DNA from: a bacterium
Lineage (GTDB): Bacteria; CAIJMQ01; JAADFP01
Assembly (NCBI GenBank): GCA_027021085.1
Contig: JALUVB010000233.1
Location: forward strand, 1 to 18,175
DNA length: 18,175 nucleotides
Direction: 5' to 3'
A program made the position numbers and the translations under genes. The notes beneath the pieces were generated by a model. The model worked only from the letters and a program-made list of their open reading frames with translations, was not told the origin of the DNA and searched no databases. Every line of letters starts with the position of its first letter. Position 1 is the stretch's first letter. Below, piece after piece: positions 2,149-18,036 of this stretch.

Positions 2149-2176
2149 TGTCTAAAGTCTGATGTCTATAGTCTAA
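2149..2176 (-). repeat. Heptad repeat block, family B, inverted copy
   Basis: Four in-phase 7-base units at 2149-2155, 2156-2162, 2163-2169 and 2170-2176 read on the minus strand as TTAGACT-, ATAGACA-, TCAGACT- and TTAGACA-type units. They mirror the plus-strand block at 1974-2008, so the two blocks could pair as imperfect arms of a long-range inverted repeat with a spacer of about 140 nt. Confidence 0.82.
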
Positions 2177-2191
2177 CATGGGGGCACAGGC

Positions 2192-2226
2192 GGAACTCGC
2201 AACTCAGGACTGGGGACTCACAACTC
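2192..2226 (+). repeat. Heptad repeat block, family C (consensus NNRACTS)
   Basis: Five in-phase 7-base units at 2192-2198, 2199-2205, 2206-2212, 2213-2219 and 2220-2226 share the core RACT followed by C or G. The block ends 17 nt before the 3' end of the convergent lipoyl-domain gene. It completes a non-coding gap (1884-2243) that is almost wholly period-7 sequence. Confidence 0.82.
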
Positions 2227-2243
2227 TTACACTATGATCCATC

Positions 2244-2492
2244 CTACGGCTCCCCTACCACTACCCCCAGGGTCTCACCAATTTTCACTTTTTCTCCCTC
2301 CTTCTTTAATATTTTCTCCAGCTTCCCTGCTCCGGGAGCAGAAATCCTGAATACTGCCTTGTCCGAGAGCACCTCTACTATTTCTTCCCCTTCTTTTACC
2401 GTTTCTCCTGCTTCTTTTAACCAGAAGGAGACCTCCACTTCTTTAATGTCCTCTCCCAGTACGGGCACTTTTACTTCCTGTTGATTAGCCAT
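2244..2492 (-). CDS. Free-standing lipoyl (biotinyl-lipoyl) domain protein
   Basis: At 82 residues this protein is essentially one lipoyl domain of the 2-oxoacid dehydrogenase E2 type. The KVPVLGEDIKEVEVSFWLK opening, the turn VKEGEEIVEVLSDKA and the second half-barrel (SAPGAGKLEKILKKEGEKV) are all present. Lys45 in SDKA is the predicted lipoylation site; DKA fits lipoyl domains, whereas biotin domains normally read MKM. No linker, subunit-binding domain or acyltransferase domain follows, so it is a detached swinging arm or carrier. E1, E2 and E3 genes are not in the window, and its partner enzyme is unknown. The ATG is preceded by AGGAGGT at 2497-2503. It lies 46 nt after the RimI-like gene, presumably the same operon. 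Confidence 0.88.
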   Translation of the reverse strand: MANQQEVKVPVLGEDIKEVEVSFWLKEAGETVKEGEEIVEVLSDKAVFRISAPGAGKLEKILKKEGEKVKIGETLGVVVGEP

Positions 2493-2538
2493 TTTTACCT
2501 CCTGCTATAATGCTTTCAGAAGTCGTATCTTAAAAGTT

Positions 2539-3003
2539 CTACGAGGTCGAATTTTTGACCGTATTTAGCCTCTTGTAAAAAAGATAGGCATCTTCTCCAT
2601 CCCGGTAATAATGAGGAATCAGGTCAGCTTTCTCGAATCCCATTTTCTCATAAAGGGCAATAGCAGGTTTATTACTCACCCTCACCTGGAGTTCTATCCG
2701 CTGCGCCTTATCCATGCACTCTTTCTCCACACTTTCCAGTAATGCAGTCGCCACTCCTTCCTGCCTTCTTTCCGGAGTAACCGCAAGGGAAACAATAGTT
2801 ATCAAATCCCTCCATAAAGTGGCTACTATGTAGCCGATAACTTCTCCATTCGACTCTGCCACAAAAAAATACTCGCTTTCCACTTCCAGGTAATAGCGAA
2901 AATCCCAGGGAGAGTAAGGATAGGGAAAGCTTGTTTTCTCTATCTCGTATATTTTCTCAATATCTTCTTCTCTTGCTTCTCGCACAATGAAGGGGATCGC
3001 CAT
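2539..3003 (-). CDS. rimI: GNAT acetyltransferase, RimI-like
   Basis: This 154-residue single-domain GNAT protein resembles RimI, which acetylates the N-terminal alanine of ribosomal protein S18 using acetyl-CoA. The acetyl-CoA pyrophosphate loop is RRQEGVATALL (residues 79-89). The family block QVRVSNKPAIALYEKMGF (106-123) and the ending HYYRDGEDAYLF are typical of RimI. Tyr118 matches the catalytic Tyr115 of E. coli RimI. The position 12 residues earlier, catalytic Glu103 in E. coli (LEVR), is Gln106 here (LQVR). It may therefore use another base, such as Glu104, or have another substrate. Its ATG directly abuts the TAA of the preceding gene, implying coupled translation. A general GNAT label is certain; RimI is likely. 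Confidence 0.83.
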   Translation of the reverse strand: MAIPFIVREAREEDIEKIYEIEKTSFPYPYSPWDFRYYLEVESEYFFVAESNGEVIGYIVATLWRDLITIVSLAVTPERRQEGVATALLESVEKECMDKAQRIELQVRVSNKPAIALYEKMGFEKADLIPHYYRDGEDAYLFYKRLNTVKNSTS

Positions 3004-4539
3004 TTAATCTATTTTTCTGGGAATCGCAAAAATAGAAGACAGCATTTCCTTATCACATCTAATTTCCGTTATTATTTTATTATCTCTTGCATATATCACC
3101 CCTCCCAATCCCCTGGATGGAAAAGGTCGCTTGGTAATCATGGAGATAATCTGGGCAGGAGAGAAATAAATCTTTGCCGAAACCCGGGAGGGAAGGGATT
3201 TAAATATATGGGCAACCTGGGGCGAATCCTGCAAGCTTTCGCCACCCTTTTTTATAATCTTGTAGCCATTTTTTATAGCCGCATTATCCTTTCCCACGCT
3301 TAGCAAAAAGAATTTCCCGTTAAGGATAAGAAACACCTTTATTTTCTGGGGTGCTCTTGCGGTTTTTTCCGGTAGAGTTATCTCGTATCCCTTGATTTTC
3401 TCTCCCAGGTAATCTACCTCAGGCAGTTTCTGAACCTGGAGTTTATCCGCAGGGATATTAGCCAGGGGGGAAAATTTCCGGGGAGATTCTACCAGTTCCT
3501 TGAAAGACTCCTCTTTCTTCACCCTGCCTACTACCAGAACAGAGGGGAAGCCGTCTTCTCCCATACTGCCGCTTATTCCTACCTCAGGGTACATGGACTC
3601 TTTAATTTTTTCCCGGAATTCCAGGGTAGATTTTTTCATTTCTGCCAGCTTGTCTTTGTCTTCCTGGCTGAGAGATGCTCCTTCTTTTTCCAGCTCCTGA
3701 TAGAACTTATTTATTTCTTCCGTATTTTGGAAGTCCAGCAGGAAATCTGCCCCGAAGATGCTTTCCCGGGGAAGCAGAGAAAAGTAATCCAGTTTCTGGG
3801 CAGGCAAATCCTGCAATCTCTGGAAATAGACTACTTTTTTTACCAGAATACCTTCTTTTCCCAGATTTACATTCAAAAACACATAATCCAACTCCTGCAG
3901 CTTTTCCTTCGCCTTTCTTATGTTAACTTTTGCTATCAAATCAGTAAGAGCACCCGTGCTTTTCTGGGAGATACCCTGGGAAATCAAGTTTAAAAAGGGA
4001 GAGAAATTTTTAACTAAAGCTTTTAAATCTATAAAGGCAATAAACTCCCCTCCGCCAAATTCTTTTAATGCCTTATGATATTCTTTTCTCTGGGATAAAC
4101 TCCCTCCTTCCCTTATAACCTTGATGATATCCCTTGCCGTAGGAATATCAGAAGTAAGGATAAGCAAACGTTTATACCGGAGAGCATAACGCAGTCCTTT
4201 TAAAGGGGTTTTTAGGGAGAGAATTTTTATTCCCTGGTATTCTTCTGCCTGCGAGGAGACAAAATCCTCAGGCAGGGTTTTCCCTTTCAAATAAGCTGTC
4301 AATCCATAAGAATCAGGAAGAGAAAGATAGTAGTAAGCAATGGGCTTTGTAGTATCAATGTTTACCTTTTGCAAAGTAGCAATAAAGCGGGAATCTTTTT
4401 TGCCTGCGTAATCAACTGCGTACTGCAGATTCTTAGCCTCGCTGTAAACATGCAGGGAAGAGGGAACGTATTCCGCCAGGTCAGCGAAAAGGGGTAAACT
4501 AAGAAAAACAACCAATGCCACTCCCAAAATCTTTTTCAT
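3004..4539 (-). CDS. Exported protein of unknown function, possibly DUF3352-like
   Basis: The start is placed at the ATG at 4537-4539, because AAGGAGGTG lies just upstream and the protein then opens with a clean Sec signal peptide (MKKILGVALVVFLSLPLFA, cleavage before D). An in-frame TTG at 4557 lies 5' of that ribosome site and is unlikely. The mature protein of about 490 residues starts LAEYVPSSLHVYSEA and alternates short hydrophobic strands (GEFIAFIDLKAL, SIFGADFLLDF, PSVLVVGRV) with charged helices. This recalls the loosely defined DUF3352 family, often described as periplasmic or surface proteins of unknown role. No catalytic motif or membrane anchor beyond the signal was found. The ribosome site overlaps the end of purN, so it is probably in the purN operon. 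Confidence 0.8.
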   Translation of the reverse strand: MKKILGVALVVFLSLPLFADLAEYVPSSLHVYSEAKNLQYAVDYAGKKDSRFIATLQKVNIDTTKPIAYYYLSLPDSYGLTAYLKGKTLPEDFVSSQAEEYQGIKILSLKTPLKGLRYALRYKRLLILTSDIPTARDIIKVIREGGSLSQRKEYHKALKEFGGGEFIAFIDLKALVKNFSPFLNLISQGISQKSTGALTDLIAKVNIRKAKEKLQELDYVFLNVNLGKEGILVKKVVYFQRLQDLPAQKLDYFSLLPRESIFGADFLLDFQNTEEINKFYQELEKEGASLSQEDKDKLAEMKKSTLEFREKIKESMYPEVGISGSMGEDGFPSVLVVGRVKKEESFKELVESPRKFSPLANIPADKLQVQKLPEVDYLGEKIKGYEITLPEKTARAPQKIKVFLILNGKFFLLSVGKDNAAIKNGYKIIKKGGESLQDSPQVAHIFKSLPSRVSAKIYFSPAQIISMITKRPFPSRGLGGVIYARDNKIITEIRCDKEMLSSIFAIPRKID

Positions 4540-4549
4540 AAACACCTCC

Positions 4550-5170
4550 TTAATCAAGTATCTTCACCCTGTTTCCTTCCACTCTGAGCTTTCCCCGGGA
4601 AAAAAGCTGCAAACCCTTTACTATTATCTCCTGCTCTGCTTTCTGCACTTTTGCCTTGAGGGTCCCCGGGGTTTCTTCTTCATTCACCTCTACCGCCTTC
4701 TGAAGGATTATAGGGCCCGTGTCTGCGCCCTCATCCACAAAATGAAGCGTGCATCCGGTAACTTTTACACCTCTTTTTATAACTTCCTCATGAACATTCA
4801 AGTCCATCCCCCCTGCAAAAGCGGGAAGAAGCGAAGGATGGATATTCATAATGCGATTTTTCCACTCGTTGACAAAAGAAGCAGAGAGAATTCGCATGTA
4901 ACCGATGAGAAGCACCACTTCCACCCCTCTCTCTCTTAACAGCCGGGAAACTTCCGCATCAAATTCCTGCCGGGAGGAAAACCTGGCAGGAGAAATATAA
5001 ATTGACTCTATTTTATGTTTTCTTGCCCTTTCCAGGATATAGGCACCTTTCTTATCAGATATCACTACTACAATCTCGGCCTGAAGTCTGCCTTCTTTTA
5101 TTGCTTTTATTACCCCTTCCAGGTCTGTGCCGCTGGTAGAACCCAGGACTCCTATTTTCAATTCACCCAC
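4550..5170 (-). CDS. purN: Phosphoribosylglycinamide formyltransferase (GAR transformylase)
   Basis: This 206-residue protein should carry out the third step of purine synthesis, transferring a formyl group from 10-formyl-tetrahydrofolate to GAR in the cytosol. The phosphate-binding loop is GSTSGTDLEGVI near residues 10-21. The catalytic triad is visible: Asn109 and His111 in MNIHPSLLP, and Asp150 in HFVDEGADTGPII. Length is normal. The loop after LLPAF (AGGMDLNVHEEVIKRG) is a variant found in part of the family, so another formyltransferase-fold role cannot be fully excluded. The start is GTG at 5168-5170, with no Shine-Dalgarno sequence but a TATAAT only 5 nt upstream, suggesting a leaderless mRNA. 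It is first in a four-gene minus-strand operon and has no other pur gene beside it. Confidence 0.93.
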   Translation of the reverse strand: MGELKIGVLGSTSGTDLEGVIKAIKEGRLQAEIVVVISDKKGAYILERARKHKIESIYISPARFSSRQEFDAEVSRLLRERGVEVVLLIGYMRILSASFVNEWKNRIMNIHPSLLPAFAGGMDLNVHEEVIKRGVKVTGCTLHFVDEGADTGPIILQKAVEVNEEETPGTLKAKVQKAEQEIIVKGLQLFSRGKLRVEGNRVKILD

Positions 5171-5175
5171 AATTA

Positions 5176-5181
5176 ATTATA
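5176..5181 (-). promoter_or_regulatory. Probable -10 element of purN (leaderless)
   Basis: The minus strand reads TATAAT, a perfect -10, with only 5 nt before the GTG start of purN. No good -35 is seen (TTAAAA at 15-nt spacing is the best match). Transcription would begin at or within a base or two of the start codon, consistent with the lack of a ribosome-binding site. Confidence 0.5.
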
Positions 5182-5218
5182 CACAATCTTGTTATTTTTT
5201 AACACTTTTCGCCCCCCT

Positions 5219-5246
5219 TTACCAGAGAAAGAATAAATTATAAAAT
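5219..5246 (+). promoter_or_regulatory. Possible promoter for the NYN nuclease gene
   Basis: TTACCA (5219-5224, 4 of 6 to the -35 consensus), a 16-nt spacer and TAAAAT (5241-5246, 5 of 6 to the -10 consensus) face the nuclease gene and would give a leader of about 100 nt. The AT-rich setting makes chance matches likely. The intergenic stretch 5171-5354 thus holds divergent start signals. Confidence 0.35.
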
Positions 5247-5283
5247 GATAGCAGAGGAAATACTGCATAAGAAGTAGCCTGTG

Positions 5284-5340
5284 ATGGATAAGAGAGAGCA
5301 AGAAAGAAAGCCATTCATTACTTTGTTGCTTTATTTTTAG
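5284..5340 (+). CDS. Possible 18-codon leader ORF upstream of the NYN nuclease
   Basis: ATG at 5284 opens an 18-codon frame (MDKREQERKPFITLLLYF) ending in TAG at 5338-5340, 14 nt before the nuclease ATG. The TAG overlaps the AGGA that is the only candidate ribosome site for the nuclease, so translation of the two could be linked. It has no clear Shine-Dalgarno sequence and is short enough to arise by chance. It is listed because the downstream product belongs to a family that cuts mRNA in translating ribosomes. Confidence 0.25.
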   Translation: MDKREQERKPFITLLLYF

Positions 5341-5354
5341 GATTATTTTGCACT

Positions 5355-5819
5355 ATGCTAATAGTAGACGGTTATAACCTGCTGCATCAATTACCAAGTC
5401 TTAAAGGGAAAAAGATAGACAGAGCCAGGGATATAATGGTGCGCAAACTGGGAGAAAAAAGAAAGCATTTCCAGGAAATGCTCGTGGTATTTGACGGAGA
5501 AGAAGGGCCCACCCCTGCCCGTTTCAGAGAGAAAGGTGTCAAGGTAATCTTCAGCGGGGAGGAATCAGCTGATGATTATATCAAAAGACAGGTGAAACGT
5601 GCCAAATCCCCCGGGAAGATCACCGTGGTAACCGATGACAGGGAAATCCGGGATTTTGTCAGACTTCACGGCAGCAAGCTTCTTTCCACAAAAGAAATGA
5701 GATCACTACTTTTCCCCGAGAAGCCCCCCGTACTGCCTCCTGCTGAGGAAAAGCCCTCCCCCTCCTCGGAAAAAGGAAGGAAAATAAACGCGGAATTAAA
5801 GAAAGTGTGGAGAGCGTAG
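5355..5819 (+). CDS. NYN-domain endoribonuclease, YacP/Rae1-like
   Basis: This 154-residue protein has the YacP-type NYN (PIN-like) nuclease fold. Acidic metal-site residues are readable: Asp5 and Asn8 in IVDGYNLL, Asp47 in VVFDGEE, Asp73 and Asp74 in SADDYIKR, and Asp94 and Asp95 in VVTDDREI. In Bacillus subtilis the family member Rae1 (YacP) cuts mRNA in the ribosomal A site. Here that role is inferred from family only. After the domain, residues 120-142 form a Pro/Glu/Lys/Ser-rich tail ending in a basic helix (INAELKKVWRA) that might contact RNA or ribosomes. The ATG lacks a strong ribosome site (AGGA at 5339-5342 is 12 nt away). It is a lone plus-strand gene, divergent from purN and convergent with the next gene. 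Confidence 0.88.
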   Translation: MLIVDGYNLLHQLPSLKGKKIDRARDIMVRKLGEKRKHFQEMLVVFDGEEGPTPARFREKGVKVIFSGEESADDYIKRQVKRAKSPGKITVVTDDREIRDFVRLHGSKLLSTKEMRSLLFPEKPPVLPPAEEKPSPSSEKGRKINAELKKVWRA

Positions 5820-5871
5820 AAAACACGCCTCAATATCAATACTCTTTTTACCGTCTGAAGAAGAACAAGGC

Positions 5872-6291
5872 TTAAGGATTATCCAGGAGAATAAAAAGAT
5901 TTTCCAGGTCTTCTTTTACCTCTTCCTTTTCTTTTTTTGAAAGTTTATCCCAATTTTTCTCCGCCCAGGAGAGATAAGCAGAAAATATACCGTACTCTTC
6001 CATTTCAATATTCTTATACTCCTCTGAAAGAGTATGCAGGAGAGACAGGTTCCTGCGAAGAGAGGAAAGATAAAAATAGGGACGAAATTTCTTTCCTCCC
6101 TTCTGAAATTCTTTCTTGTAAATTTCCATTTTCCGGATTACACTCTGCATCTGCCGGGAAATATCTTCTTTCCTTCCCTCCAACCAGAGAATGGAAGCAA
6201 CAAACTTCTCTTTTTCTGTTACTGCTTCCCCTTCAGAAAAAAGAGGGGAAATTAGTGCACCCAGTAACAGCAAAACGGCAAATATTCTCAT
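5872..6291 (-). CDS. Small exported helical protein, unknown
   Basis: Starting from the ATG at 6289-6291 the product is 139 residues: a Sec signal peptide (MRIFAVLLLLGALISPLFS) followed by a Lys/Glu-rich, mostly helical chain with coiled-coil character (KEKFVASILWLEGRKEDIS, KLSKKEKEEVKEDLE). No known domain is recognised. An in-frame TTG at 6309 would add six residues and overlap the preceding stop, but it puts charged and aromatic residues before the signal and has no better ribosome site. The chosen ATG is 7 nt after the stop of the sigma-54 activator, so the two are probably translationally coupled. It may be an envelope-stress or sensor accessory of that regulator, but only gene order supports this. 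Confidence 0.7.
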   Translation of the reverse strand: MRIFAVLLLLGALISPLFSEGEAVTEKEKFVASILWLEGRKEDISRQMQSVIRKMEIYKKEFQKGGKKFRPYFYLSSLRRNLSLLHTLSEEYKNIEMEEYGIFSAYLSWAEKNWDKLSKKEKEEVKEDLENLFILLDNP

Positions 6292-6298
6292 CAACCAT

Positions 6299-7624
6299 TT
6301 ACTCTGCAAATTTTATGCCGTATTTCTTCATTCTATAGATTAAGGTGCGACGGGTTATTCCCAGCAGCCTGGCAGCCTGGGTCTGGTTACCCCTGCTCAT
6401 GCTCAGGGCTTCCTCTATGAGCCCTTTTTCTACTTCTTCTATGGTCCCCCTTCTCTTTTCAGAAGAGAAAAGAGAGAGTTGGGGAAGAGAGATATGAGAA
6501 GGAAGAATTTTCTCACCTTCGGAAATTAAAGAAGCATTCTCCAGCACATTTTCCAGCTCTCTCACATTTCCAGGCCAGGAATAGGAATTAAGAATAGGCA
6601 GAACTTCTGGAGAAAGTTTCTTTTGAGGATACTTTTTCCTGAGAAAGTTTTCTGCCAGAGGCAGTATATCCTCTCTGCGTTCCCGCAGGGGTGGAATAAA
6701 AATCGGGAATACATGCAGGCGATAGAAAAGGTCCTCCCTGAATTTGCCTTCTTCCACGCTCTTTTTAAGCTCGCGATTTGTGGCTGCGATTATTCTTACA
6801 TTTACCCTGATAGTCTCGTTTCCCCCTAACCTTTGAAATTCTTTATACTGAAGAAACCGCAAAAGCTTACCCTGCAAGGAAGGAGACATCTCCCCTATTT
6901 CGTCCAGGAATACACTGCCTCCCTCCGCAAACTCAAATTTACCGATTTTTCTGGCAGTGGCTCCGGTAAAAGCACCTTTTTCATGTCCAAACAACTCGCT
7001 CTCCAGCAAATTCTCCGGGAGAGAGGCACAGTTTATCACCACGAAGGGCTTGTTTTTCCTCTTGCTTTCATAATGGATAATCCTGGCTATTAGCTCCTTT
7101 CCCGTGCCGCTTTCTCCCGTGATAAGAACCGTAACCTCCTTATCCAGTATTTTTTTAACTTTATCTATAATATCCTGCATGGCTTTACTTGTATATATAA
7201 AATCTTTAAAGGTTATTTTCTCTGGCCAGCGCGTTTTGAGATAAAGGTTTTCCTCCTTCTGCTGCTGCTCCTGGAATATCTGCTCAAGAATATGCTTCAA
7301 TTCTTCTGTTTTGAAAGGTTTCGTCAAATAGTCCCTGGCTCCTTTTTTAAGAGATTCCACCGCGGTTTCCACCGTAGCGTATGCGGTAATAATAACAGTT
7401 TCCGTAGAAGGTTCCCTCTTTTTAATCTCTTCCATAAGCCTTAAGCCATCCATGCCAGGAAGCTTTAAATCCACAATTGCCACCGGGAAGTAGCTTCTCT
7501 TCACTTTATCCAATGCTTCGTAAGCATCTCCTGCTCCCTCCACCCTGTATCCTTCCTTGCTCAACTGGCGAATGAGCAGTTCCCTCATTCTCTCCTCGTC
7601 TTCAACAATCAGTATTTTTTTCAT
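6299..7624 (-). CDS. NtrC-family sigma-54-dependent response regulator
   Basis: All three modules are intact in 441 residues. The receiver domain (about 1-118) has acidic Glu8/Asp9, phospho-acceptor Asp52 (VDLKLPGMDG), Thr80 and Lys102. The AAA+ domain has Walker A GESGTGKE (170-177), the sigma-54-contacting GAFTGA loop (217-222), Walker B VFLDEI (238-243) and PGNVRELEN (351-359). A Fis-type helix-turn-helix follows (NQTQAARLLGITRRTLIYRM, 413-432). Phosphorylation should promote assembly of an ATPase ring that opens RNA polymerase-sigma-54 complexes at enhancer-linked promoters. No histidine kinase is next to it, so the signal is unknown. A TGTTAAAAT extended -10 lies 6 nt before the ATG and no clear Shine-Dalgarno sequence is present. 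It heads a two-gene unit. Confidence 0.95.
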   Translation of the reverse strand: MKKILIVEDEERMRELLIRQLSKEGYRVEGAGDAYEALDKVKRSYFPVAIVDLKLPGMDGLRLMEEIKKREPSTETVIITAYATVETAVESLKKGARDYLTKPFKTEELKHILEQIFQEQQQKEENLYLKTRWPEKITFKDFIYTSKAMQDIIDKVKKILDKEVTVLITGESGTGKELIARIIHYESKRKNKPFVVINCASLPENLLESELFGHEKGAFTGATARKIGKFEFAEGGSVFLDEIGEMSPSLQGKLLRFLQYKEFQRLGGNETIRVNVRIIAATNRELKKSVEEGKFREDLFYRLHVFPIFIPPLRERREDILPLAENFLRKKYPQKKLSPEVLPILNSYSWPGNVRELENVLENASLISEGEKILPSHISLPQLSLFSSEKRRGTIEEVEKGLIEEALSMSRGNQTQAARLLGITRRTLIYRMKKYGIKFAE

Positions 7625-7630
7625 ACCTAC

Positions 7631-7639
7631 ATTTTAACA
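7631..7639 (-). promoter_or_regulatory. Extended -10 element of the sigma-54 activator gene
   Basis: The minus strand reads TGT followed by TAAAAT (TG at 7638-7639, TAAAAT at 7631-7636), only 6 nt before the ATG. An extended -10 does not need a good -35, and none is seen. The mRNA would be leaderless or nearly so. Confidence 0.4.
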
Positions 7640-7730
7640 GAATTATCCCGCGCTTATCCGGGGAATCCACATATTTGAAAAACCTTAAATGCAAAAGCAA
7701 AAACTGTCTTCCGCATACCAGGCGATTAAC

Positions 7731-7751
7731 TTACTGCTTACTGTTTACTAT
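7731..7751 (-). repeat. Heptad repeat, family A, three units starting on a stop codon
   Basis: On the minus strand three in-phase NNAGTRA units occur at 7745-7751, 7738-7744 and 7731-7737. The first contains the TAG stop (7748-7750) of the spermidine-synthase-like gene, followed directly by TAA. The rest of the gap 7625-7730 holds no gene and only the -10 element of the sigma-54 activator. Confidence 0.8.
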
Positions 7752-10018
7752 TCTATATTATCCTCATACCAGTTTAATCTCTTTCCCGTCTTCTCATCCC
7801 GGGAAAAAATGAGTAAGCTGAGCGCGGAACTTCCCAGGATAACCGCAGAAGCAGCAAAAGAAGCCACCAGTCCCAGGGTAATGGAGGCAGCAGAACCTAT
7901 GAGCAATGCTCCCAGCATAGCGCCTATCAGGTCAGCACCGTAAAGCCTGCCGGCAGAAGCGGCAGCATCGTCTCTTGCAGCCAGGGCAAAGCGGAAAGCT
8001 GCCCCCACGCCAGCTCCCGCTGCCAGGTTCAACAGGCAGGCAACTACCAGGAGAGAATCTCCCAGCATAGCCATCCATTTTACTGTTACCGCAGCCAGTC
8101 CCAATATAAGCAAGGCAACGAATACACAGGCCAAAAGCCCTCTCATCTGCCATTCTTTATGCTTTAATGCCCAGACCGAGCCAAGCGCCAACCCTCCCAT
8201 GAAAGCTGCATTGAAAATCCCTATGTAAAGATAGACAAAGCCAAAAGCACTCTGCAGGGCGTGAAGCACGGAAATTTCAACTGTCAGGCCAAAAACCCCC
8301 AGGCACATTATTGCGGAGTAAACAGCAGCGGTTTTCCCTTTTTCTCTTCCTCCCATCCTGGCTCCTCCGCAAAACAACAACACCAGGAGTGAAAGCAGCA
8401 CAAAGTGCCAGAACCTGATTTTATCAATAACGCGGTACAGGAAGCTTTCCTTCTCCCCCAGGAGTGACCGCCATACCTCAAACATGTAGCCTATGGCAGA
8501 AGGCTTTGCATCCGTGTTGATGCGAACCTCCTCTCTCCCGGCATAGGGCATAATCTTGCTATTTGTTCTTCTGACAGGCCCCTCCTGGTAAATCAGGGAG
8601 AAACATTCAGGCCGGAAGAACCTGGTGGGCTCTGTCCCCGCGGTAAGCCGTTTGTACCGTTCATAGAGCACCTTCCAGTCGGATACTAACCTGGCCTCAG
8701 AGGCAAAGATAAAGCCTTCCGTAGGCAGAGCAAGTATATCTGGGAAAACTTTTCTCAAGGTCTTCACAATACTGGCGGAGAGGAGCAAGTTCTCCTTCTG
8801 GGGGTCAATATCCACCTTCATGCCAAGCGCTACCGTACCACCTGGATTAAGTATCTTTTTCAGCTCCTGGAAAAACTCCAGCGTGTAGAACCGGTTGGCA
8901 TTCCTGGTAAGAGGCGCAGGCATATCAACAATTATTACATCATATTTTCCCTCTGTCTTCTTCACGAACCTCCTGGCATCTATGAAATGAAATTCCAGAT
9001 TTTCTATCTCTGGCGTGGACACGTAGCTGGTAATAGTGCTGATGAGTTGGGGATCCAATTCCACAAAATCAATCCTTTCCAGGTTGTATCTTTTTATCTC
9101 GTTCAGCGACTGGCCTATAGAACCTCCCAGCATCAGCAAAGAACGCGGATGGGGATGTTGGATCAGGGCAGCATTGATACGGCTGGCAGCAGGATAGTCA
9201 TCGGGATAAGATTTTTGCAGCTGCGAGTCCACGTAAAAGTTGTACTGGTCATGCCATTTTGTTACGGCAATCTCACCGTAGCGGGACTGGATAACCTTCA
9301 GCAATCTCATTCCCGGGGTAAATATCTTCCACTTGGCCTCCTGTGATTCCTTTTCCAGGTAGGGGGAGAGAGGAATGGCGACCAGTACAAGCAGAAAAGT
9401 GAGCAAAACGAGAACGGAAGGGAGCAGGAACTTCCTGAGCACCAGAACTACAGAAAAGACGAGATATCCACTGGCCAGGAGAACCACCCCTATGGGATTG
9501 AAAAACTCCACCAGCAGGAAAGAAAAAAGAACTCCTGCCAGGAGGCTGCCGGTAGCATCCAGCAGGTAGGCTCTGGCTGAACCCAGACGCAACCTCTTTT
9601 CATCGTAAAGAAGCGAGGCAGAATGGAGCAAGCCAAGGAGAAAACATAAGGGAGCAAGGATAATTATTGTACTGATAGAAAGAGAGAGCAGAGGAATTAC
9701 TTCCCCGCTCTCCTTGTCCATCCACACCCTCACAACCCGGAAAAGGTGCACCGTAATCGGCACAGAGAAAGCCAGCAGGCAAACCAGCCCGGCCAAAAGA
9801 TAAGGAGAAGCTGTCCTGCATTTTCTTATCCGGGGCGCTACGAGCGTCCCCACGCCCAGGAAAAGAAGCCATACCCCGAGGACAAGCCCGAAAGAAAGCT
9901 CGCTCCCCCTGAAATTGACGAATACCTGCCGGAAAGCAGAAATCTGGGCGATTTGTTCGAAGAATCCGATAGCAAAGAAAAGATTAATTGAGAGACTGCG
10001 AGAAAGTTTTACGTCCAT
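7748..10018 (-). CDS. Polytopic membrane protein with central spermidine-synthase-like domain
   Basis: In 756 residues an aminopropyltransferase/methyltransferase-fold domain (about 235-445) sits between two blocks of membrane spans: about 11-30, 43-63, 72-95, 109-135, 153-173, 175-195 and 197-217, and then about 537-552, 567-590, 596-618, 627-650, 655-680, 695-715 and 717-738. The core shows the nucleotide loop LGGSIGQSLNEI (297-308), VELDP (319-323), DAR (347-349) and VDMPAP (364-369). Spermidine synthases usually have a second Asp in the last motif (D-x-x-D-P); here it is Ala368, so classical spermidine synthesis is doubtful. The two membrane blocks share Y-x-x-D-x-x-G-[SA] (151-158, 693-700), hinting at an internal duplication. 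Substrate is unknown. Its ATG overlaps the end of the radical SAM gene by 10 nt. Confidence 0.85.
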   Translation of the reverse strand: MDVKLSRSLSINLFFAIGFFEQIAQISAFRQVFVNFRGSELSFGLVLGVWLLFLGVGTLVAPRIRKCRTASPYLLAGLVCLLAFSVPITVHLFRVVRVWMDKESGEVIPLLSLSISTIIILAPLCFLLGLLHSASLLYDEKRLRLGSARAYLLDATGSLLAGVLFSFLLVEFFNPIGVVLLASGYLVFSVVLVLRKFLLPSVLVLLTFLLVLVAIPLSPYLEKESQEAKWKIFTPGMRLLKVIQSRYGEIAVTKWHDQYNFYVDSQLQKSYPDDYPAASRINAALIQHPHPRSLLMLGGSIGQSLNEIKRYNLERIDFVELDPQLISTITSYVSTPEIENLEFHFIDARRFVKKTEGKYDVIIVDMPAPLTRNANRFYTLEFFQELKKILNPGGTVALGMKVDIDPQKENLLLSASIVKTLRKVFPDILALPTEGFIFASEARLVSDWKVLYERYKRLTAGTEPTRFFRPECFSLIYQEGPVRRTNSKIMPYAGREEVRINTDAKPSAIGYMFEVWRSLLGEKESFLYRVIDKIRFWHFVLLSLLVLLFCGGARMGGREKGKTAAVYSAIMCLGVFGLTVEISVLHALQSAFGFVYLYIGIFNAAFMGGLALGSVWALKHKEWQMRGLLACVFVALLILGLAAVTVKWMAMLGDSLLVVACLLNLAAGAGVGAAFRFALAARDDAAASAGRLYGADLIGAMLGALLIGSAASITLGLVASFAASAVILGSSALSLLIFSRDEKTGKRLNWYEDNIE

Positions 10019-11157
10019 ACTCCCGGTATAACATTACCACATTTACTGCACCTCCCGTTCCGCAGGTTATTTTCTATAATCCTCAGGCCTACCCGTTTAA
10101 TGAGGGCAGTTCCACAGGAAGGACAGTAAGTATAGTTGCCGGGATGGGGAGAGACATTGGTGGTATAGACATAATGCAATCCCACCTCTTTCCCGATGTT
10201 ATAGGCTCTCTCCAGGGTGGAAAGGGGTGTCTGGGGGAGATTTTTAAGTTTATATTCCGGCACGAAGCGGGCAAAATGGAGCGGGACATCAGGCCCTACA
10301 TTTTTCAGGAGCCATTTACACATCTCCCGTACTTGTTTCATATCGTCGTTATAGGTAGGAACGATAAGGTTTACCACCTCCAACCACCTTCCGCTTTCCT
10401 TGATAGCAAGTATGGTGTCCAGCACCGGCCTGAGCGTGGCAGCAGTCATCCTCCTGTAGACTCCATCATCAAATGCCTTCAGGGTAATGGTAAAACTCTC
10501 AGCCACTGAGATTAAGTCCTTGAGCGGTTCCTTGTTGATATACCCTGCCATGGCTATGGCATGCCTGATTCCCCTCAACTTGGAATAATGTGCCAGCTCC
10601 AGGATATACTCCATGAAAACTACCGGCTCAGTATAATTATAGGTAAGAATTTTGATGTCTTTCTGGCTCAACGCCCCGGGGACTCTCTCCTTGGGAAAGC
10701 GAATAGTATCGAGCCTTTCCGGCCGCTCCTGGGATTGCCGCCAATTCTGGCAGTATAGACAGTGCAGATTACATCCTCCCACAGCCACGGTGAGACTCTT
10801 GTGTCCCGGCAGATAGTGTGCAGTAGGAAGTTTTTCCACCGGGTCCACGGAGATAATACAGGGATTATCCATGGCATGGGTGTAAAGCACACCACTATAA
10901 TTCTTTTTTGTCCTGCATTGGCCAACAGCATTATCTCCCAGCAGGCAGTAAAAAGGACAAACCTGGCACTGCACCATTCTTCCGCTTACCCTTCTGTAAT
11001 ACTTACCCGGGATAGCTTTCTTCCTCACTAACTCTGCGTAGGCATTCTCCTCCAGCAGTCCCAGGTATTTCAGAGCCAGGGGAAGCGAAATAAATGCAGA
11101 GCCGTAACGTGCCATGTTTTTCAGGAAATCCCGCCGACTTATTATGCCCTTTTCCAT
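10009..11157 (-). CDS. amrS: AmrS-type radical SAM enzyme with Tat signal
   Basis: This 382-residue protein matches the radical SAM member of the AmmeMemoRadiSam family. The 4Fe-4S/SAM motif is CNLHCLYC (Cys129, Cys133, Cys136). An N-terminal cysteine cluster, C64-x2-C67-x3-C71 with Cys81, is typical of the family. The C terminus has a zinc-ribbon-like set, Cys345/348 and Cys370/373. Residues 7-25 form a twin-arginine signal (SRRDFLKNMARYGSAF), so the folded, cofactor-loaded enzyme may be exported. The reaction is not established to my knowledge. The partners AMMECR1 and Memo are not in the window. The ATG at 11155-11157 follows GAAGAG, lies 7 nt after the previous stop, and the gene overlaps the next by 10 nt, a tight three-gene unit. 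Confidence 0.9.
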   Translation of the reverse strand: MEKGIISRRDFLKNMARYGSAFISLPLALKYLGLLEENAYAELVRKKAIPGKYYRRVSGRMVQCQVCPFYCLLGDNAVGQCRTKKNYSGVLYTHAMDNPCIISVDPVEKLPTAHYLPGHKSLTVAVGGCNLHCLYCQNWRQSQERPERLDTIRFPKERVPGALSQKDIKILTYNYTEPVVFMEYILELAHYSKLRGIRHAIAMAGYINKEPLKDLISVAESFTITLKAFDDGVYRRMTAATLRPVLDTILAIKESGRWLEVVNLIVPTYNDDMKQVREMCKWLLKNVGPDVPLHFARFVPEYKLKNLPQTPLSTLERAYNIGKEVGLHYVYTTNVSPHPGNYTYCPSCGTALIKRVGLRIIENNLRNGRCSKCGNVIPGVWT

Positions 11158-11164
11158 AACTCTT

Positions 11165-12154
11165 CTAATTGCTCTGTAACAAATTCAAGCGATACTGAAG
11201 AAGAGGAATTATTTCCGGGTCAAGGAAATACCGCACAATCTTGCTTGTGCCCACAGGGTCGCGAACCTTCTGGGTCCTGTATAATTCCTGCTGAATATTA
11301 CGTAAATCATCCCGCAGTACTTCCAGCTTATCCTTGTATTTAAACTCATCTGCCAGTTCTTCTTTGTTCATTTCAAAGTCCACATCGTCCATGTAATATA
11401 CCTTTTTGAGCAGCTCCCGCATACGCTGACGTTCCTGTGCTATCTCATCATCTGTCAACCGGTACCTGCGGCTGATTTTGTCCAGGTGCACATCTACTAT
11501 CCTATCCAGGGCAAAGGAAAACTTCTGGGAGGGAATACTGCGAATTCTCTTAAGCATGCGCACAGCGTACTCGTTACTGGAAGCCTGTCCAACCCTGATG
11601 GGATCACGCAAATCATTGGGCGGAACAACACAGGGCTTGAATCCCTTTATGACTTCCTTTTGAGCATCGGTAAAAACATCGTTCAGCCTGGCAAGAAACG
11701 GTTCTTTTATATCCTTAAACTGCTGGCGAAATTCTTTTGTGATACGGGAGGCTCTTCCTGCCTCTTTCATCCTCTCCTCGGGCAAGCTGCCATCCCGAAT
11801 AGCCTGTTCCCACTTTTCCAGTGATGCACGCGATTCTGAGAGAACCTTAATCGCCTTGGCAACACTCTCCTGGAGCTTTTCCTTGTACTCGGTGTTTATG
11901 GCAATAAGCTCTTCAATCTGTTCCCGGGAGAGATTCAGTCCGTTAAACAGATTCCAGAAACTTATCCTGTGCTTCAGCCTGTTAATCGCCCTCATATCGG
12001 AAATAAGCCTCTGGGCAGGATCCTCCCTGTTCTGCAGGGAGAGCACTTCATCCCCGTAAAGAACAGGCGACTGAAGAATACCGCCACCCAGCAAAAAACC
12101 CAGCATTATTAATACCAGCATCCCCGGAAAGCACCATCTTTTCTTGAAACCCAT
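11165..12154 (-). CDS. Exported helical protein, Spy/LTXXQ-like
   Basis: The ATG at 12152-12154 is chosen because GGAGGTGA (12160-12167) lies 5 nt upstream; an in-frame GTG falls inside that ribosome site. The product is about 329 residues with a signal peptide or anchor (WCFPGMLVLIMLGFLLGGG) and long charged helices. LNLSREQIEELI and VFTDAQKEVI resemble the repeated LTxxQ motif of Spy/CpxP periplasmic chaperone-like proteins. A cysteine-containing segment, GFKPCVVPPNDLRDPIRVGQ, lies mid-protein and looks conserved in style, but its role is unknown. It is first of a unit with the Tat-dependent radical SAM enzyme (7-nt gap). This suggests that the two act in the same compartment, perhaps as substrate, chaperone or sensor; that is inference. 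Confidence 0.72.
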   Translation of the reverse strand: MGFKKRWCFPGMLVLIMLGFLLGGGILQSPVLYGDEVLSLQNREDPAQRLISDMRAINRLKHRISFWNLFNGLNLSREQIEELIAINTEYKEKLQESVAKAIKVLSESRASLEKWEQAIRDGSLPEERMKEAGRASRITKEFRQQFKDIKEPFLARLNDVFTDAQKEVIKGFKPCVVPPNDLRDPIRVGQASSNEYAVRMLKRIRSIPSQKFSFALDRIVDVHLDKISRRYRLTDDEIAQERQRMRELLKKVYYMDDVDFEMNKEELADEFKYKDKLEVLRDDLRNIQQELYRTQKVRDPVGTSKIVRYFLDPEIIPLLQYRLNLLQSN

Positions 12155-12190
12155 AACGTTCACCTCCAGAATTCAGGAGATACAATTTTT

Positions 12191-12236
12191 GTGCCAATCG
12201 TGGAAGAGCTGAACATGCTGCCAGATAAAGTGGCAC
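12191..12236 (-). ncRNA. Possible structured 5' leader element
   Basis: GTGCCA (12191-12196) and TGGCAC (12231-12236) are perfect complements enclosing further nested pairs, TGG with CCA (12201-12203, 12221-12223) and AGC with GCT, with a 7-nt loop. The element would end about 24 nt before the ribosome-binding site of the Spy-like gene. It matches no riboswitch class I recognise. Confidence 0.35.
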
Positions 12237-12248
12237 CCCTTAAGCTCA

Positions 12249-12265
12249 ATTCCGTGGGACGGAAT
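12249..12265 (-). promoter_or_regulatory. Small perfect hairpin in the leader of the Spy-like gene
   Basis: ATTCCG (12249-12254) and CGGAAT (12260-12265) pair perfectly around a 5-nt loop. No T-tract follows, so it is not an intrinsic terminator. With the stem at 12191-12236 it forms a two-hairpin leader, or it may be a protein site. Confidence 0.35.
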
Positions 12266-12361
12266 CCTGATGGAAAGCCCCTCCCTCTCACCATTTTATC
12301 CGGGGTTATTCCTGATTCGGACGAATTTTCGCCTTGCAGTAAAGAAAACCCGGGCAAAATG

Positions 12362-12377
12362 TGTACCATATAGTACA
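12362..12377. promoter_or_regulatory. Near-perfect 16-bp palindrome, candidate operator
   Basis: TGTACCATATAGTACA pairs at 7 of 8 positions across its centre, a typical shape for a dimeric regulator site. It lies in the gap (12155-12421) between the sulfatase stop and the Spy-like gene, about 210 nt before that start. No clear -35/-10 pair was found around it. Confidence 0.4.
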
Positions 12378-12421
12378 AAACCTACCTTTTGGGCCTCAGC
12401 CGGCAGCAGCGGAAAAGAGCC

Positions 12422-13888
12422 TCACTTCATCGGTTCTGTCAAAATCCAGTCAAGTAAGTGATTTTTTAACTCTTCTTTCTGATTTCTATACAGTTTATTA
12501 TTTGCTAAATTAATCATTTCCCAGGGGTCATCTTTCAGATTATATAACTCTTCCCTGTCGCCCACATAGTAGCAATATTTCCAATTGCCTTTTTTTAGCA
12601 TTGCCGCCCTGCCCCTGGTAGTGTAGTCAATAAACCAGAATATGCCATCCTTTTTCAATCTTTCTTTTTGGTATACACGGAATTCCTCCTTGCTCATTAC
12701 GGGAGGAGGAAATTCCGGGGTGCCTAATTCAGCATAAACTTCGTCCCGGTGGGAGGCTTTTTGGCGCATGATAATATCAAAGAATGATTTACCCTGTACA
12801 CCTTCTACCAACGGCAAATCCAGGCATTCAAATATAGTGGGCATGATATCTATATTACTAATTTGTGCCTTAACCACTGTATTGCCCTGCATTCCGGGGA
12901 TCTTCATAATCAGAGGTATCTTAACCAGCACCTCATAAAACCCCCCGGTTTTTCCCACCAAACCATATCTCCCGCCAAAATTCCCGTGGTCTGCCGTAAA
13001 TACTACCAGGGTATCCTCTTCCAGCCCCAATTCTTTAATTCTGCTTAAAAGCATTCCTACCGCTTTATCAATAAAACTTATTTGCCCGTAATAGGTGGCC
13101 AGTATTCGTTTTATATCTGCCTCCGAGTAGGCAGGATAGTCATAAGCCTGCGACTGCACGTAATGTTTAAAGGGGTGTTCATCCCAGTCTATATCCAGAG
13201 CTTCCAGTTTTATGTCCTCCGGATTGTACATTGAATAATACGGTTCGCAGACCACATTTGGCCAGTGCGGGTCCGGAAACGAGAAGTATAAAAAAAACGG
13301 ATTATCCCTGTTTTCTTCAACAAACCGTATTCCATCCTCAGCGATTCTATGCGAAATGCAATATTCTTCAGCAAATGGCTCCGGCTCCTGAACCAACCCC
13401 TCCATTATTCCATAGCTTTTTTGTGCAGAAATATCTTTAAATCTTTTTTCTGTTCTCCTCCATTCAGCAATTTTTTTGTCTGTCTCCGTGATGGTCCCGT
13501 GTGTTTTCCCGTGATGCCCGTATTCCTCCCTGTAATCAAACCATTTCCCCAGGTATTCGTCTGTAAAAGCATGGTTCTTACCGGCTAACCCAACTTTGTA
13601 TCCATTTTCCTTTAAAATCCTAATGAAAGATGCCTGGGCCAATCCAATGTGGCATTTCATGGCATTGGAAACAGAACGCGTTCTGTGCACGTATTGCCCG
13701 GTGAAAAAACTTACCCGGGAAGGAACGCATAAAGGCGAGACACAATAAGCATTTTCAAATATAAAATTGCCCTTTGCCAAAGAATCTATATGCGGTGTTT
13801 TTACTATGGGATGCCCCATGCAGGCAAGGGAATCGTATCTATGTTCATCCGTCATAATCACAATAAGGTTCTTTTTCTTGCCCATCAT
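12422..13888 (-). CDS. Type I sulfatase (cytoplasmic, Cys-type)
   Basis: This 488-residue alkaline-phosphatase-superfamily enzyme should hydrolyse sulfate esters. The formylglycine signature is CVPSR, with Cys54 as the residue to be converted. Metal ligands are suggested by Asp14 in MTDEHRYDS and by FTADHGNFGGRYGLVGKTGGFYE, which also holds the active-site Lys region. The C terminus (EELYNLKDDPWEMINLANN) is the normal sulfatase ending. No signal peptide is present, so it probably works in the cytoplasm on imported saccharides. A formylglycine-generating enzyme or anaerobic sulfatase-maturating enzyme must come from elsewhere. ATGATG at 13883-13888 gives two possible starts; AAGGG lies just upstream. 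It follows the GH130 gene by 14 nt, so it is the last gene of a glycan operon. The substrate cannot be read from sequence. Confidence 0.92.
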   Translation of the reverse strand: MMGKKKNLIVIMTDEHRYDSLACMGHPIVKTPHIDSLAKGNFIFENAYCVSPLCVPSRVSFFTGQYVHRTRSVSNAMKCHIGLAQASFIRILKENGYKVGLAGKNHAFTDEYLGKWFDYREEYGHHGKTHGTITETDKKIAEWRRTEKRFKDISAQKSYGIMEGLVQEPEPFAEEYCISHRIAEDGIRFVEENRDNPFFLYFSFPDPHWPNVVCEPYYSMYNPEDIKLEALDIDWDEHPFKHYVQSQAYDYPAYSEADIKRILATYYGQISFIDKAVGMLLSRIKELGLEEDTLVVFTADHGNFGGRYGLVGKTGGFYEVLVKIPLIMKIPGMQGNTVVKAQISNIDIMPTIFECLDLPLVEGVQGKSFFDIIMRQKASHRDEVYAELGTPEFPPPVMSKEEFRVYQKERLKKDGIFWFIDYTTRGRAAMLKKGNWKYCYYVGDREELYNLKDDPWEMINLANNKLYRNQKEELKNHLLDWILTEPMK

Positions 13889-13902
13889 TTACCCTTTACT
13901 TT

Positions 13903-14823
13903 TTATCTTTTAAGACAGTAATCTATAAGCGTATCAATAGTAGTTTGAGCCAGGCATATTCTGGTGTCTGCCCCCCCATAATAGATATTTAATTTACCGT
14001 CGTCTGTCTCAATGGCACCACAGGTAAAAACAACATTTGGCACCTGTCCAATACATTCATACTCCTTTTCCGCCGCCAGTATACATTCTCTGGGAGCAGC
14101 AATTACCCTGGAAGGGTCATCAAGGTCCAGCAAAGCCACCCCAAGGTAATAGTTCTCGGTAGAACATGTGCCTCCTACGCCATGGTATATTTCCAGCCAA
14201 CCTTCTCTTGTCTTGATAGGAACCGTCCCAGCCCCAATTTTCTTCCCTGACCATGGGGTCACCGGGATGTCCAGGGGCATTGACTTCCCCCAGTACACCA
14301 AATCCGGCGAATAACTCACCCACATAATTCCGGAACCATCTATATTCTGCGGCCTTTCCAGCCTTGCATACAGCCCGTTTATTTTCTCGGGAAATAATAC
14401 TGCATTCCGGTTTGAAGGAACCGAGGTATAAGGTAATGGCTCAAAATTTACGAAATCTTCTGTTTTTGCCATGGCAATCATACACCCAGGGTCAAGCCAG
14501 AGCGCATGGCAGACATAATAGGTATTTTCCAGGTAGGTTATGCGCATATCAAACCTGTGCCCTTTCCTGTATCTTTTCTCAATCTCTGTAAGGGGATAAT
14601 TAATCGGTTCACTGCGCACCGAGAAGTTAATCCCGTCTTTACTTGTAGCCACGTAGAAATCAGTGCGCCTGGAATAATCTTCCACCCTCAGCAGCAGCAA
14701 GTATTCATCCTTGAACCGTATTGCACCGGCATTAAATACTGAATAGCAGCGAAAAGGCATCTGTTCCGGTGTTAGTATTGGATTACCTTCGTAACGAATT
14801 AACGGGTCTTCTTTTTTACCCAT
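13903..14823 (-). CDS. Glycoside hydrolase family 130 protein (mannoside phosphorylase-like)
   Basis: This 306-residue five-bladed propeller enzyme resembles GH130, whose members phosphorolyse or hydrolyse beta-mannosides, often releasing mannose 1-phosphate. Family landmarks in order: GNPILTPEQMPF (13-24), VFNAGAIRFKDEYLLLLRVED (29-49), Asp92 in RFDMRITYLE, NAVLFPEKINGLYARLERPQ, GAGTVPIKTREGWLEIYHGV, and YYGGADT near the end. Asp92 takes the place of the usual catalytic Asp in the more common D-P-R context; here the Pro is Met. No signal peptide is seen, so it is probably cytoplasmic. AGGAGG lies 5 nt before the ATG. Its place between two exported proteins and a sulfatase suggests intracellular processing of saccharides made outside. 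Phosphorylase versus hydrolase cannot be decided here. Confidence 0.9.
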   Translation of the reverse strand: MGKKEDPLIRYEGNPILTPEQMPFRCYSVFNAGAIRFKDEYLLLLRVEDYSRRTDFYVATSKDGINFSVRSEPINYPLTEIEKRYRKGHRFDMRITYLENTYYVCHALWLDPGCMIAMAKTEDFVNFEPLPYTSVPSNRNAVLFPEKINGLYARLERPQNIDGSGIMWVSYSPDLVYWGKSMPLDIPVTPWSGKKIGAGTVPIKTREGWLEIYHGVGGTCSTENYYLGVALLDLDDPSRVIAAPRECILAAEKEYECIGQVPNVVFTCGAIETDDGKLNIYYGGADTRICLAQTTIDTLIDYCLKR

Positions 14824-14865
14824 GCGAACCTCCTGTTTTATTTAATAACATGCTGATTTGAGTGT

Positions 14866-16269
14866 TTATTTTGCCAAAAGCAATTTACTCAGTAAAGCCC
14901 TGGTATTCCCCAGCTCTAAATCGATAAAATATTTCTCATCAGTATATCGGTTAGAGCTATTCCCTGCTCTCCCGCCCGGTTTTTCCCCGGTATACAACCT
15001 GAATACATTATCCCCTCGATACAGCAAGGGCACCACAGTATTATCTGATAAATATATCAACAAGTAGGATTTCTCCGGGAGAAGGAAGTCCCTTTTTATC
15101 TCCATTGCTTTTCCCGAGATACGGGAAGGTATCTTCTGCCTTCCTTCCTGATACATGAAGGTAGTGACATCCTGGAATAAAACTCTTAGTAGACTTTCCA
15201 GGTTTTCTTTATCAAACTCTATCCTGCCCGGGACTTTGCCGGATTTATCCCCCGGGATAAACTCTATTTTATATACATACCTGTTACTGTAGGGAAAATG
15301 CTTTTCCTTGCTGCTCGGCCTGATAGCTTCTATGTAATCGGTTTCTCTTAGCCAATCCACTCCCGGCGGGAAGAGCCAGACATAGCGTTTGGCTATTTTA
15401 AATACCTCTCTTACCTCAGTTTTAACTTCGCGGGGGGTCAACCTGCTACGGTTCTCATGGATACCCGGCCAGATTCCGGGGGCAATACCGCATTTCTCCA
15501 AGAGTCTCTGGTCATTTTTCATTACCAGTATCATCATCAGGGTATAAATCATGTCCTGTGCCTTGATTTCCTCCGGGGTTGTCGAATAATAATACTCCTC
15601 CCAGCCCATATGGATATTTTTAATAGGACTCTCTGCCAGCCCCCTGACGAAGTAAAGGAAATTCTTCCTGGTCATAAAACTGGCCGGAAAGATGAGCATC
15701 AATTCTGCCTTAGGAAACTCTTTAAATATAGCCTCCCCTATTTCCTTTCCCCGTTTAAGCGCTAAATTGCTCGGCCCTGTGCTGAAAATACGTCCCTTCC
15801 CATTCCGCACCCCGTAGGGCTCTACGTCTATACTGATTCCCACACATCCTATATCCTTAGCCCTGGAGGCCACCCGGCTGAGTAGGGCTACTGCCGCAGA
15901 CCATTTCTCCTCATCCACCCATTGCAATTCCTGGCGGGCAAATAGGAGTATATCTATGAAATTATCCTGCAAACCTTCTTCCCGGGCAATTTCCACCCGC
16001 TTTCTGAGTGGAACACCGCGGTAATCTTTCTCCACCAATTTATCGAAATTTTCTCCCGCTGTTTTCCAGGTTACTCCCGTGGTATAAATCAGTCCATCCA
16101 GGAAGCTCCTGTAATGCTTATAACGGCCCCTGATTACGGATTCATCAGAAGTCTTAACCGGCTGGGACCATAAGATAAGCTTCTTGCCAGCAACCTTTTC
16201 CTCTCCGCCGAACATGCTGAGAGAATAAACCCCGATTATAAATATGCTTACCAGTATCTTCCTAATCAT
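14866..16269 (-). CDS. Exported TIM-barrel-like protein, putative glycoside hydrolase
   Basis: This 467-residue protein has a signal peptide (MIRKILVSIFIIGVYSLSMF). I recognise no named family. The pattern fits a (beta/alpha)8 glycosidase-like barrel: KKLILWSQP as strand 1, GCVGISIDVEPYG (residues 141-153) with Asp148 and Glu150 at a strand end, then AELMLIFPASF, IKNIHMGWEEYYY (216-228), CGIAPGIWPGIHEN and YVWLFPPGVDW. Acidic residues at strand ends and the aromatic WEEYYY cluster suit sugar binding. A C-terminal beta-rich module (about 335-450) may be accessory. The ATG overlaps the previous gene by 8 nt and lies just after GGAGGGGGG, so translation is coupled. Operon partners GH130 and sulfatase support a carbohydrate role. 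Activity is unproven and it might be only a binding protein. Confidence 0.72.
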   Translation of the reverse strand: MIRKILVSIFIIGVYSLSMFGGEEKVAGKKLILWSQPVKTSDESVIRGRYKHYRSFLDGLIYTTGVTWKTAGENFDKLVEKDYRGVPLRKRVEIAREEGLQDNFIDILLFARQELQWVDEEKWSAAVALLSRVASRAKDIGCVGISIDVEPYGVRNGKGRIFSTGPSNLALKRGKEIGEAIFKEFPKAELMLIFPASFMTRKNFLYFVRGLAESPIKNIHMGWEEYYYSTTPEEIKAQDMIYTLMMILVMKNDQRLLEKCGIAPGIWPGIHENRSRLTPREVKTEVREVFKIAKRYVWLFPPGVDWLRETDYIEAIRPSSKEKHFPYSNRYVYKIEFIPGDKSGKVPGRIEFDKENLESLLRVLFQDVTTFMYQEGRQKIPSRISGKAMEIKRDFLLPEKSYLLIYLSDNTVVPLLYRGDNVFRLYTGEKPGGRAGNSSNRYTDEKYFIDLELGNTRALLSKLLLAK

Positions 16270-18028: not shown

Positions 18029-18036
18029 TCTGAGTG

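Follow-up and report, generated by a model that had tools for sequence, protein, structure and literature searches.

A widespread pairing of an exported-type AmrS radical SAM enzyme with a membrane protein of spermidine-synthase fold: a candidate extracytoplasmic variant of AmmeMemoRadiSam

Because radical SAM enzymes depend on S-adenosylmethionine (SAM), on electrons of low potential and on shielding from oxygen, they are regarded as cytoplasmic. A locus in which such an enzyme carries an export signal raises the question of whether it belongs to a pathway of the cell envelope and, if so, how SAM might be made available there. We studied such a locus in an 18,175-nt stretch of DNA (contig JALUVB010000233.1 of assembly GCA_027021085.1, positions 1 to 18,175 of the forward strand; hereafter the window) from a bacterium of the GTDB lineage CAIJMQ01; JAADFP01, whose genome is a 1.93-Mb draft, 94% complete. 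Three open reading frames (ORFs) on the minus strand of the window (Table 1) encode a secreted helical protein, an AmrS (the radical SAM enzyme of the AmmeMemoRadiSam system) with a twin-arginine translocation (Tat) signal, and a membrane protein with 14 transmembrane (TM) helices, for which, together with its relatives, we use the name SpeEm. The host is a Caldisericota bacterium, and its closest named relative is 'Caldisericota bacterium M_MaxBin.041' (L074), with 85% identity in SpeEm. The original prediction, made from the sequence alone, described the genes as a coupled module, separated by 7 nt at one junction and overlapping by 10 nt at the other, and the ORF coordinates bore this out; a close relative (genome G001) has kept both the gene order and the 10-nt overlap (L037:5089-5098).

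Surveys of other genomes made us highly confident that AmrS and SpeEm constitute a real exported module. In a sample of 60 genomes, full-length SpeEm was found in 14, and AmrS of the exported clade was present in all 14 of these and in two of the 46 others (Fisher p = 7e-12). Of the two exceptions, G020 encodes a SpeEm that is divergent but built alike, and G050 has an AmrS fragment at a contig edge and a possible SpeEm fragment. A larger survey of 290 genomes, in which SpeEm was scored at E <= 1e-60, identified it in 65 genomes, about a fifth of this broad sample. AmrS was scored in the same genomes with a profile of exported members at a threshold of 445 bits, which was set post hoc, just over the best-scoring known plain AmrS (G033, 439.8 bits), after a local trial in which exported AmrS almost all outscored the plain ones. 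With these settings both proteins were found in 57 genomes, SpeEm only in eight, exported-type AmrS only in seven and neither in 218. Exported-type AmrS therefore occurred in 57/65 genomes with SpeEm versus 7/225 without (odds ratio 222, p = 1.6e-43), which bears out the proposed co-occurrence of the Tat form of AmrS with the membrane protein. These statistics assume independent genomes, most of which came from different families.

The two genes are also neighbours. When 84,980 species genomes were scanned with a single peptide pattern, taken from SpeEm alone, 419 relatives were returned, from which 80 loci were kept. Although these loci had been picked on SpeEm alone, 63 of them contained a clear AmrS, at a median gap of 578 nt, and where at least 5 kb was available on both sides of SpeEm, AmrS was its neighbour in 30 of 33 loci. 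The three well-flanked loci lacking AmrS (L111, L131 and L140) come from genomes that encode a Tat-type AmrS elsewhere. The pair is adjacent in more than ten phyla, in both orientations and in several gene orders, and the proteins co-occur even where their genes lie far apart in the genome. The full trio of the window is limited to a small subclade that comprises Caldisericota, one Desulfobacteraceae genome and one unclassified genome. The trio is thus kept in relatives, and the AmrS-SpeEm pair is the widespread part.

The AmrS of the window scored 293.5 bits against TIGR04337 (cut-off 220 bits), and its N-terminus, MEKGIISRRDFLK, is a textbook Tat signal, so the earlier designation as a Tat-signal AmrS holds, with export being predicted. 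The Tat pathway exports folded, cofactor-loaded proteins. The CxxxCxxC motif was present in 99/99 aligned AmrS, including that of the window, and exported AmrS have kept the other conserved cysteines nearly throughout and have added fixed residues such as W282 and W381. Based on the retention of these cysteines, the exported enzymes look catalytically intact.

A tree of the 99 AmrS placed the exported members, together with a set whose N-terminal anchor is a separate ORF, in one clade (Shimodaira-Hasegawa-like approximate likelihood ratio test support 87), with two label changes observed versus 24 when labels were shuffled. The sole "plain" row within this clade (L016) has a separate upstream anchor too. 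The host genome encodes a second AmrS, which is signal-less and falls in the cytosolic part of the tree. Among the AmrS linked with SpeEm, a simple rule identified a Tat signal in 45 and inspection by eye three further Tat-like signals; four carry a hydrophobic N-terminal signal of another type (L075 counts both in this set and among the three Tat-like), and most of the rest are either truncated at a contig end or members of the split-anchor group. The Tat motifs are consistent across phyla, the signal thus being kept in homologues of the window's enzyme. A tatC gene, cut by the end of its contig (C2; L199:3667-4912), lies beside a gene for a Tat-signal DUF362 protein in the host genome. The signal, the clade and tatC are the basis on which we predict Tat export of AmrS. 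A CQNW motif was considered as a mark of the exported enzymes and rejected, as cytosolic AmrS also carry it; W381 and P146-E147 separate the two groups better.

SpeEm combines two known folds. Its Spermine_synth domain (PF01564) scored 76.4 bits against a cut-off of 22.9, and the AlphaFold2 model (predicted local distance difference test score, pLDDT, 84.7; predicted template-modelling score 0.85) comprises seven TM helices, the domain, and seven further TM helices. The TM part matched G6PT1, a protein of the major facilitator superfamily (MFS), with Z 27.8 over 361 residues, and the 14-TM model, this match and the positive-inside pattern agree on an MFS fold of two six-helix halves with the N-terminus inside. 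The inserted domain matched aminopropyltransferases (3anx, Z 27.3), and in Foldseek its fold matched that of classical SpeE with E 9e-11 and a template-modelling score of 0.68 by target length. Across 87 SpeEm relatives, the mean number of lysines plus arginines was 21.3 in the loops expected inside versus 2.35 in those expected outside. Based on these charges, we place the SAM-fold domain outside the membrane, where it very probably sits. Together with the retention of the pair across phyla, this predicted extracytoplasmic position strongly supports the proposal that AmrS, exported by Tat, shares an envelope pathway with the SAM-fold membrane protein.

The site residues indicated which functions the domain may have retained. 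Alignment to 1uir and 3anx, from which, with other known structures of the spermidine synthase family, we presume the roles of these residues, showed that the glycine-rich loop is kept and that the ribose-binding Glu (E320) and the adenine-site Asp (D347) are each conserved in 100% of SpeEm. The acidic residue of GGG[DE]G was found in only 1/84 SpeEm, the window having Ile301, and 34% retain the catalytic Asp (D365). SpeEm also scored below the spermidine synthase equivalog cut-offs (TIGR00417, 68 vs 249.55 bits; NF002956, 118.8 vs 472 bits) and below that for fused MFS/spermidine synthases (NF037959, 32.7 vs 40 bits). Based on these residues and scores, nucleoside binding by SpeEm is likely and aminopropyl transfer unlikely, and the possibility that SpeEm is a true spermidine synthase was rejected. 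The description "membrane spermidine-synthase-like" was thus right as to fold and probably wrong if taken to mean the activity.

The neighbours of the pair were consistent with SAM chemistry outside the membrane. A fusion of Memo and AMMECR1, proteins conserved from archaea to humans, is encoded in 34/80 loci; it is above the cut-offs of both TIGR04335 and TIGR04336 and has a signal peptide, of general secretory (Sec) or lipoprotein type, in 29/29 complete N-termini, which indicates that in those lineages the whole AmmeMemoRadiSam trio is exported. The absence of Memo and AMMECR1 noted in the original prediction was therefore correct for the window, which contains neither gene, but not for the module in many lineages. 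NosR-like proteins with FMN_bind and Fer4_5 domains lie beside the pair in 13/80 loci and CcdA-like proteins in 5/80, and a Fer4_5 iron-sulfur membrane domain also occurs as a C-terminal extension of SpeEm itself (G035; L043:10519-13434). Genes for DUF362 proteins, many of which bear a Tat motif, are found in 18/80 loci, mostly of Acidobacteria. A second, distinct Radical_SAM (PF04055) protein is encoded on the opposite strand in seven loci (L075:4746-5807, L078, L086, L094, L107, L127 and L135), the representative in L075 having a Tat signal. An isoaspartyl methyltransferase (PCMT) is encoded near SpeEm in six loci (L130:1066-1827, L108, L124, L132, L134 and L147), and the signal-peptide-like N-terminus of the representative read makes it another possible user of SAM outside the cytoplasm; a search of the host genome for an exported PCMT returned one weak partial match only. 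Together, these counts indicated that exported SAM enzymes and membrane electron carriers gather around SpeEm.

On balance, we favor reading the locus as the form that a widespread, extracytoplasmic kind of AmmeMemoRadiSam takes in one lineage, in which SpeEm would supply SAM to, or hold it on, the outer side of the membrane. AmrS would fold and acquire its [4Fe-4S] cluster in the cytoplasm and then be exported by Tat. SpeEm would carry SAM, or a nucleoside related to it, through the membrane and/or hold it on the outer domain near AmrS, and we tentatively regard it as a SAM carrier or presenter. The exported AmrS would cleave SAM and perform radical chemistry on an envelope target, with the exported Memo-AMMECR1 fusion taking part in many lineages. 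Electrons would probably come from membrane carriers such as the NosR-like FMN/Fe-S proteins, the polyferredoxin fused to SpeEm and the CcdA-like proteins. In the subclade of the window, the secreted helical protein, with its invariant C-x-[IV]-P-P motif, may be a local partner, possibly a substrate or scaffold. More broadly, it is conceivable, though we would not yet count on it, that many phyla keep usable SAM outside the inner membrane, SpeEm transporting or presenting SAM (or a SAM-nucleoside) for use by exported methyltransferases and radical SAM enzymes in the modification of targets in the envelope.

Several observations weigh against this interpretation. The topology of SpeEm is itself a prediction, and PRK03612-type spermidine-synthase proteins with seven TM helices (7TM) give the same predicted topology in the absence of AmrS, so that an outer SAM-fold domain alone implies no such pathway; PRK03612-like proteins were found in L154, L155, L156 and L158, and in L155, which was checked in detail, the charges put the synthase domain outside. 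In the host genome, the two Memo genes and one AMMECR1 gene, which were located on other contigs when sought beyond the window as originally suggested, lack signal peptides, and a search there for an FMN_bind protein (the NosR-type donor) gave no match. In addition, about a dozen genomes encode a signal-less AmrS whose N-terminal anchor is a separate upstream ORF. In all of these (L095, L098, L100, L105, L115, L122, L143, L153, L042, L046, L177 and L183) the break point is the same, the small upstream ORF being a TM anchor that ends in the EA-x-YY/YW-type stretch with which AmrS normally starts, and the stop and start codons of the two ORFs often overlap. A frameshift was not adopted as the cause of the split, as the two ORFs do not overlap in L122 and L080.

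Other explanations of the same data were weighed. SpeEm may be an enzyme whose outer domain transfers a methyl or other group to the product of AmrS, periplasmic or lipid, the MFS part importing or exporting the substrate or product. The residues N375, R376, N501, D503 and P506 are invariant beyond the nucleoside site, suggesting a conserved active site, and the full MFS fold would suit such transport; however, the near-complete loss of the GGGDG acid and the low retention of D365 indicate that aminopropyl chemistry, at least, is gone, and SAM would still be required outside, so that we consider this explanation rather unlikely. It seems improbable that AmrS receives both its SAM and its electrons in the cytoplasm and acts once, before or during export (e.g., on a co-exported partner), with no SAM outside and SpeEm unrelated to its supply. 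The ability of Tat to carry cofactor-loaded proteins is compatible with such a single turnover, and the small anchors that accompany split AmrS suggest that export occurs as a complex, whereas the repeated membrane electron carriers, the second exported radical SAM protein and the exported methyltransferase point to continued SAM use outside. We give little weight to the idea that both proteins are cytoplasmic, with the Tat motif a mere membrane anchor and the topology prediction wrong: some AmrS of the exported clade do lack a signal of their own, but Tat motifs recur across phyla, the Memo-AMMECR1 partners have export signals, and the positive-inside bias of about 9 to 1 agrees with the MFS fold. 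Finally, although the remaining neighbor genes vary between lineages, a pairing due to operon neighborhood or shared lineage with no functional link is barely credible, and chance neighborhood was rejected, given the adjacency in both orientations and several orders and the co-occurrence in the 290 genomes, even at a distance.

The family to which the first gene of the trio belongs is confined to the window, G001, L076, L077 and L132. The gene lies upstream of AmrS in the window, G001 and L076, downstream of SpeEm in L077, and about 8 kb from AmrS in L132; the window, G001, L076 and L077 also form the window's AmrS subclade (support 100). The earlier label "Spy-like" found no support, as a comparison with Pfam yielded no family at E 0.01 (two unrelated matches at E up to 1 were at chance level) and the helical model was of low confidence (pLDDT 64.8), with no match in the PDB under E 0.001. 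A glycyl-radical interpretation of the RVGQA in its conserved motif was dropped, as the sequence does not fit the known RVxG-type motif. The family member from the Desulfobacteraceae genome (L077:12299-13498) carries an insertion with a CxxCH haem-binding motif.

Other genes flank the trio. Downstream (window 5872-7624), the gene for a sigma-54-type response regulator overlaps that for a small protein whose N-terminus is signal-like, and G001 has both as well. Upstream (window 12422-16269) are genes for a sulfatase with a CVPSR motif, a GH130 phosphorylase and a secreted protein whose family is unknown. None of the three is present in the matching region of G001, for which reason the sulfatase and GH130 genes were left out of the module.

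Table 1. Coordinates of the trio and its features in the window.
Feature	Position	Strand	Basis or remark
Secreted helical partner protein, 332 aa (GTG start) or 329 aa (ATG at 12154), N-terminal signal peptide	11165-12163	-	Family comparison
Invariant motif C-x-[IV]-P-[PY]-x2-L-x-[DH]-P-x-R-V-G-[QE]-A, residues 178-194 of partner	11582-11632	-	Family alignment
Intergenic gap, first gene / AmrS	11158-11164		7 nt
Exported AmrS (predicted), AmmeMemoRadiSam radical SAM enzyme, 382 aa	10009-11157	-	TIGR04337 293.5 bits; exported-clade member
Tat motif S-R-R-D-F-L-K, residues 7-13, followed by hydrophobic stretch	11119-11139	-	Sequence
CxxxCxxC radical-SAM [4Fe-4S] motif, residues 129-136	10750-10773	-	Alignment
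Overlap, AmrS / SpeEm genes	10009-10018		10 nt; also in G001
SpeEm, 14-TM MFS-type protein with inserted spermidine-synthase-fold domain, 756 aa	7748-10018	-	PF01564; AlphaFold2 model
SpeEm TM helices 1-7, residues 1-216	9371-10018	-	Model and charge analysis
SpeEm spermidine-synthase-fold domain, residues 217-532, predicted extracytoplasmic	8423-9370	-	Model, structure matches, alignment
SpeEm TM helices 8-14, residues 533-756	7751-8422	-	Model, structure matches

If the interpretation of an extracytoplasmic AmmeMemoRadiSam variant is correct, the reach of SAM chemistry would widen to the envelope through an exported AmrS clade that has electron carriers and its own SAM-fold partner in the membrane. 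To our knowledge, no reaction has been assigned to the AMMECR1/Memo/AmrS system, and the module would offer a genetic handle on all three proteins; given how common SpeEm was among the 290 genomes, a cultivable host should exist. The AmrS family is already known, though uncharacterised, and the exported clade and SpeEm module are apparently undescribed, with no account of either in the literature searched, which did not extend to subscription papers and preprints. A related radical SAM domain and "Memo-Ammecr1 systems" have been mentioned (PMC7159879), and 7TM-spermine-synthase fusions have been placed in Psp-linked and polyamine operons (PMC11237479).

Compared with known systems, the locus most resembles AmmeMemoRadiSam (TIGR04335/04336/04337), whose cut-offs are exceeded by AmrS (TIGR04337) and by the fusion of its relatives (the other two). 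It differs in the export signals of its parts, in the separate clade of its AmrS and in having the 14-TM SAM-fold protein as a near-constant partner, and also in that the host genome has no exported Memo or AMMECR1. Classical SpeE (1uir, 3anx) shares the fold of the inserted SpeEm domain, which in SpeEm is predicted to lie outside the membrane, is fused to an MFS protein and has lost the donor-discriminating acid. The 7TM-spermidine synthase fusions (PRK03612/NF002956) likewise combine a spermidine-synthase fold with MFS-like helices, and charge suggests an outward placement where checked; in SpeEm, by contrast, seven more helices follow the domain, the GGGDG acid is missing, and the link is with exported AmrS instead of DUF350/DUF4178. 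The FMN_bind/Fer4_5 proteins beside the pair, and the Fer4_5 domain fused to SpeEm, are similar to the NosR/NapH membrane Fe-S carriers, with the difference that electrons would pass here to an exported radical SAM enzyme and not to a terminal reductase.

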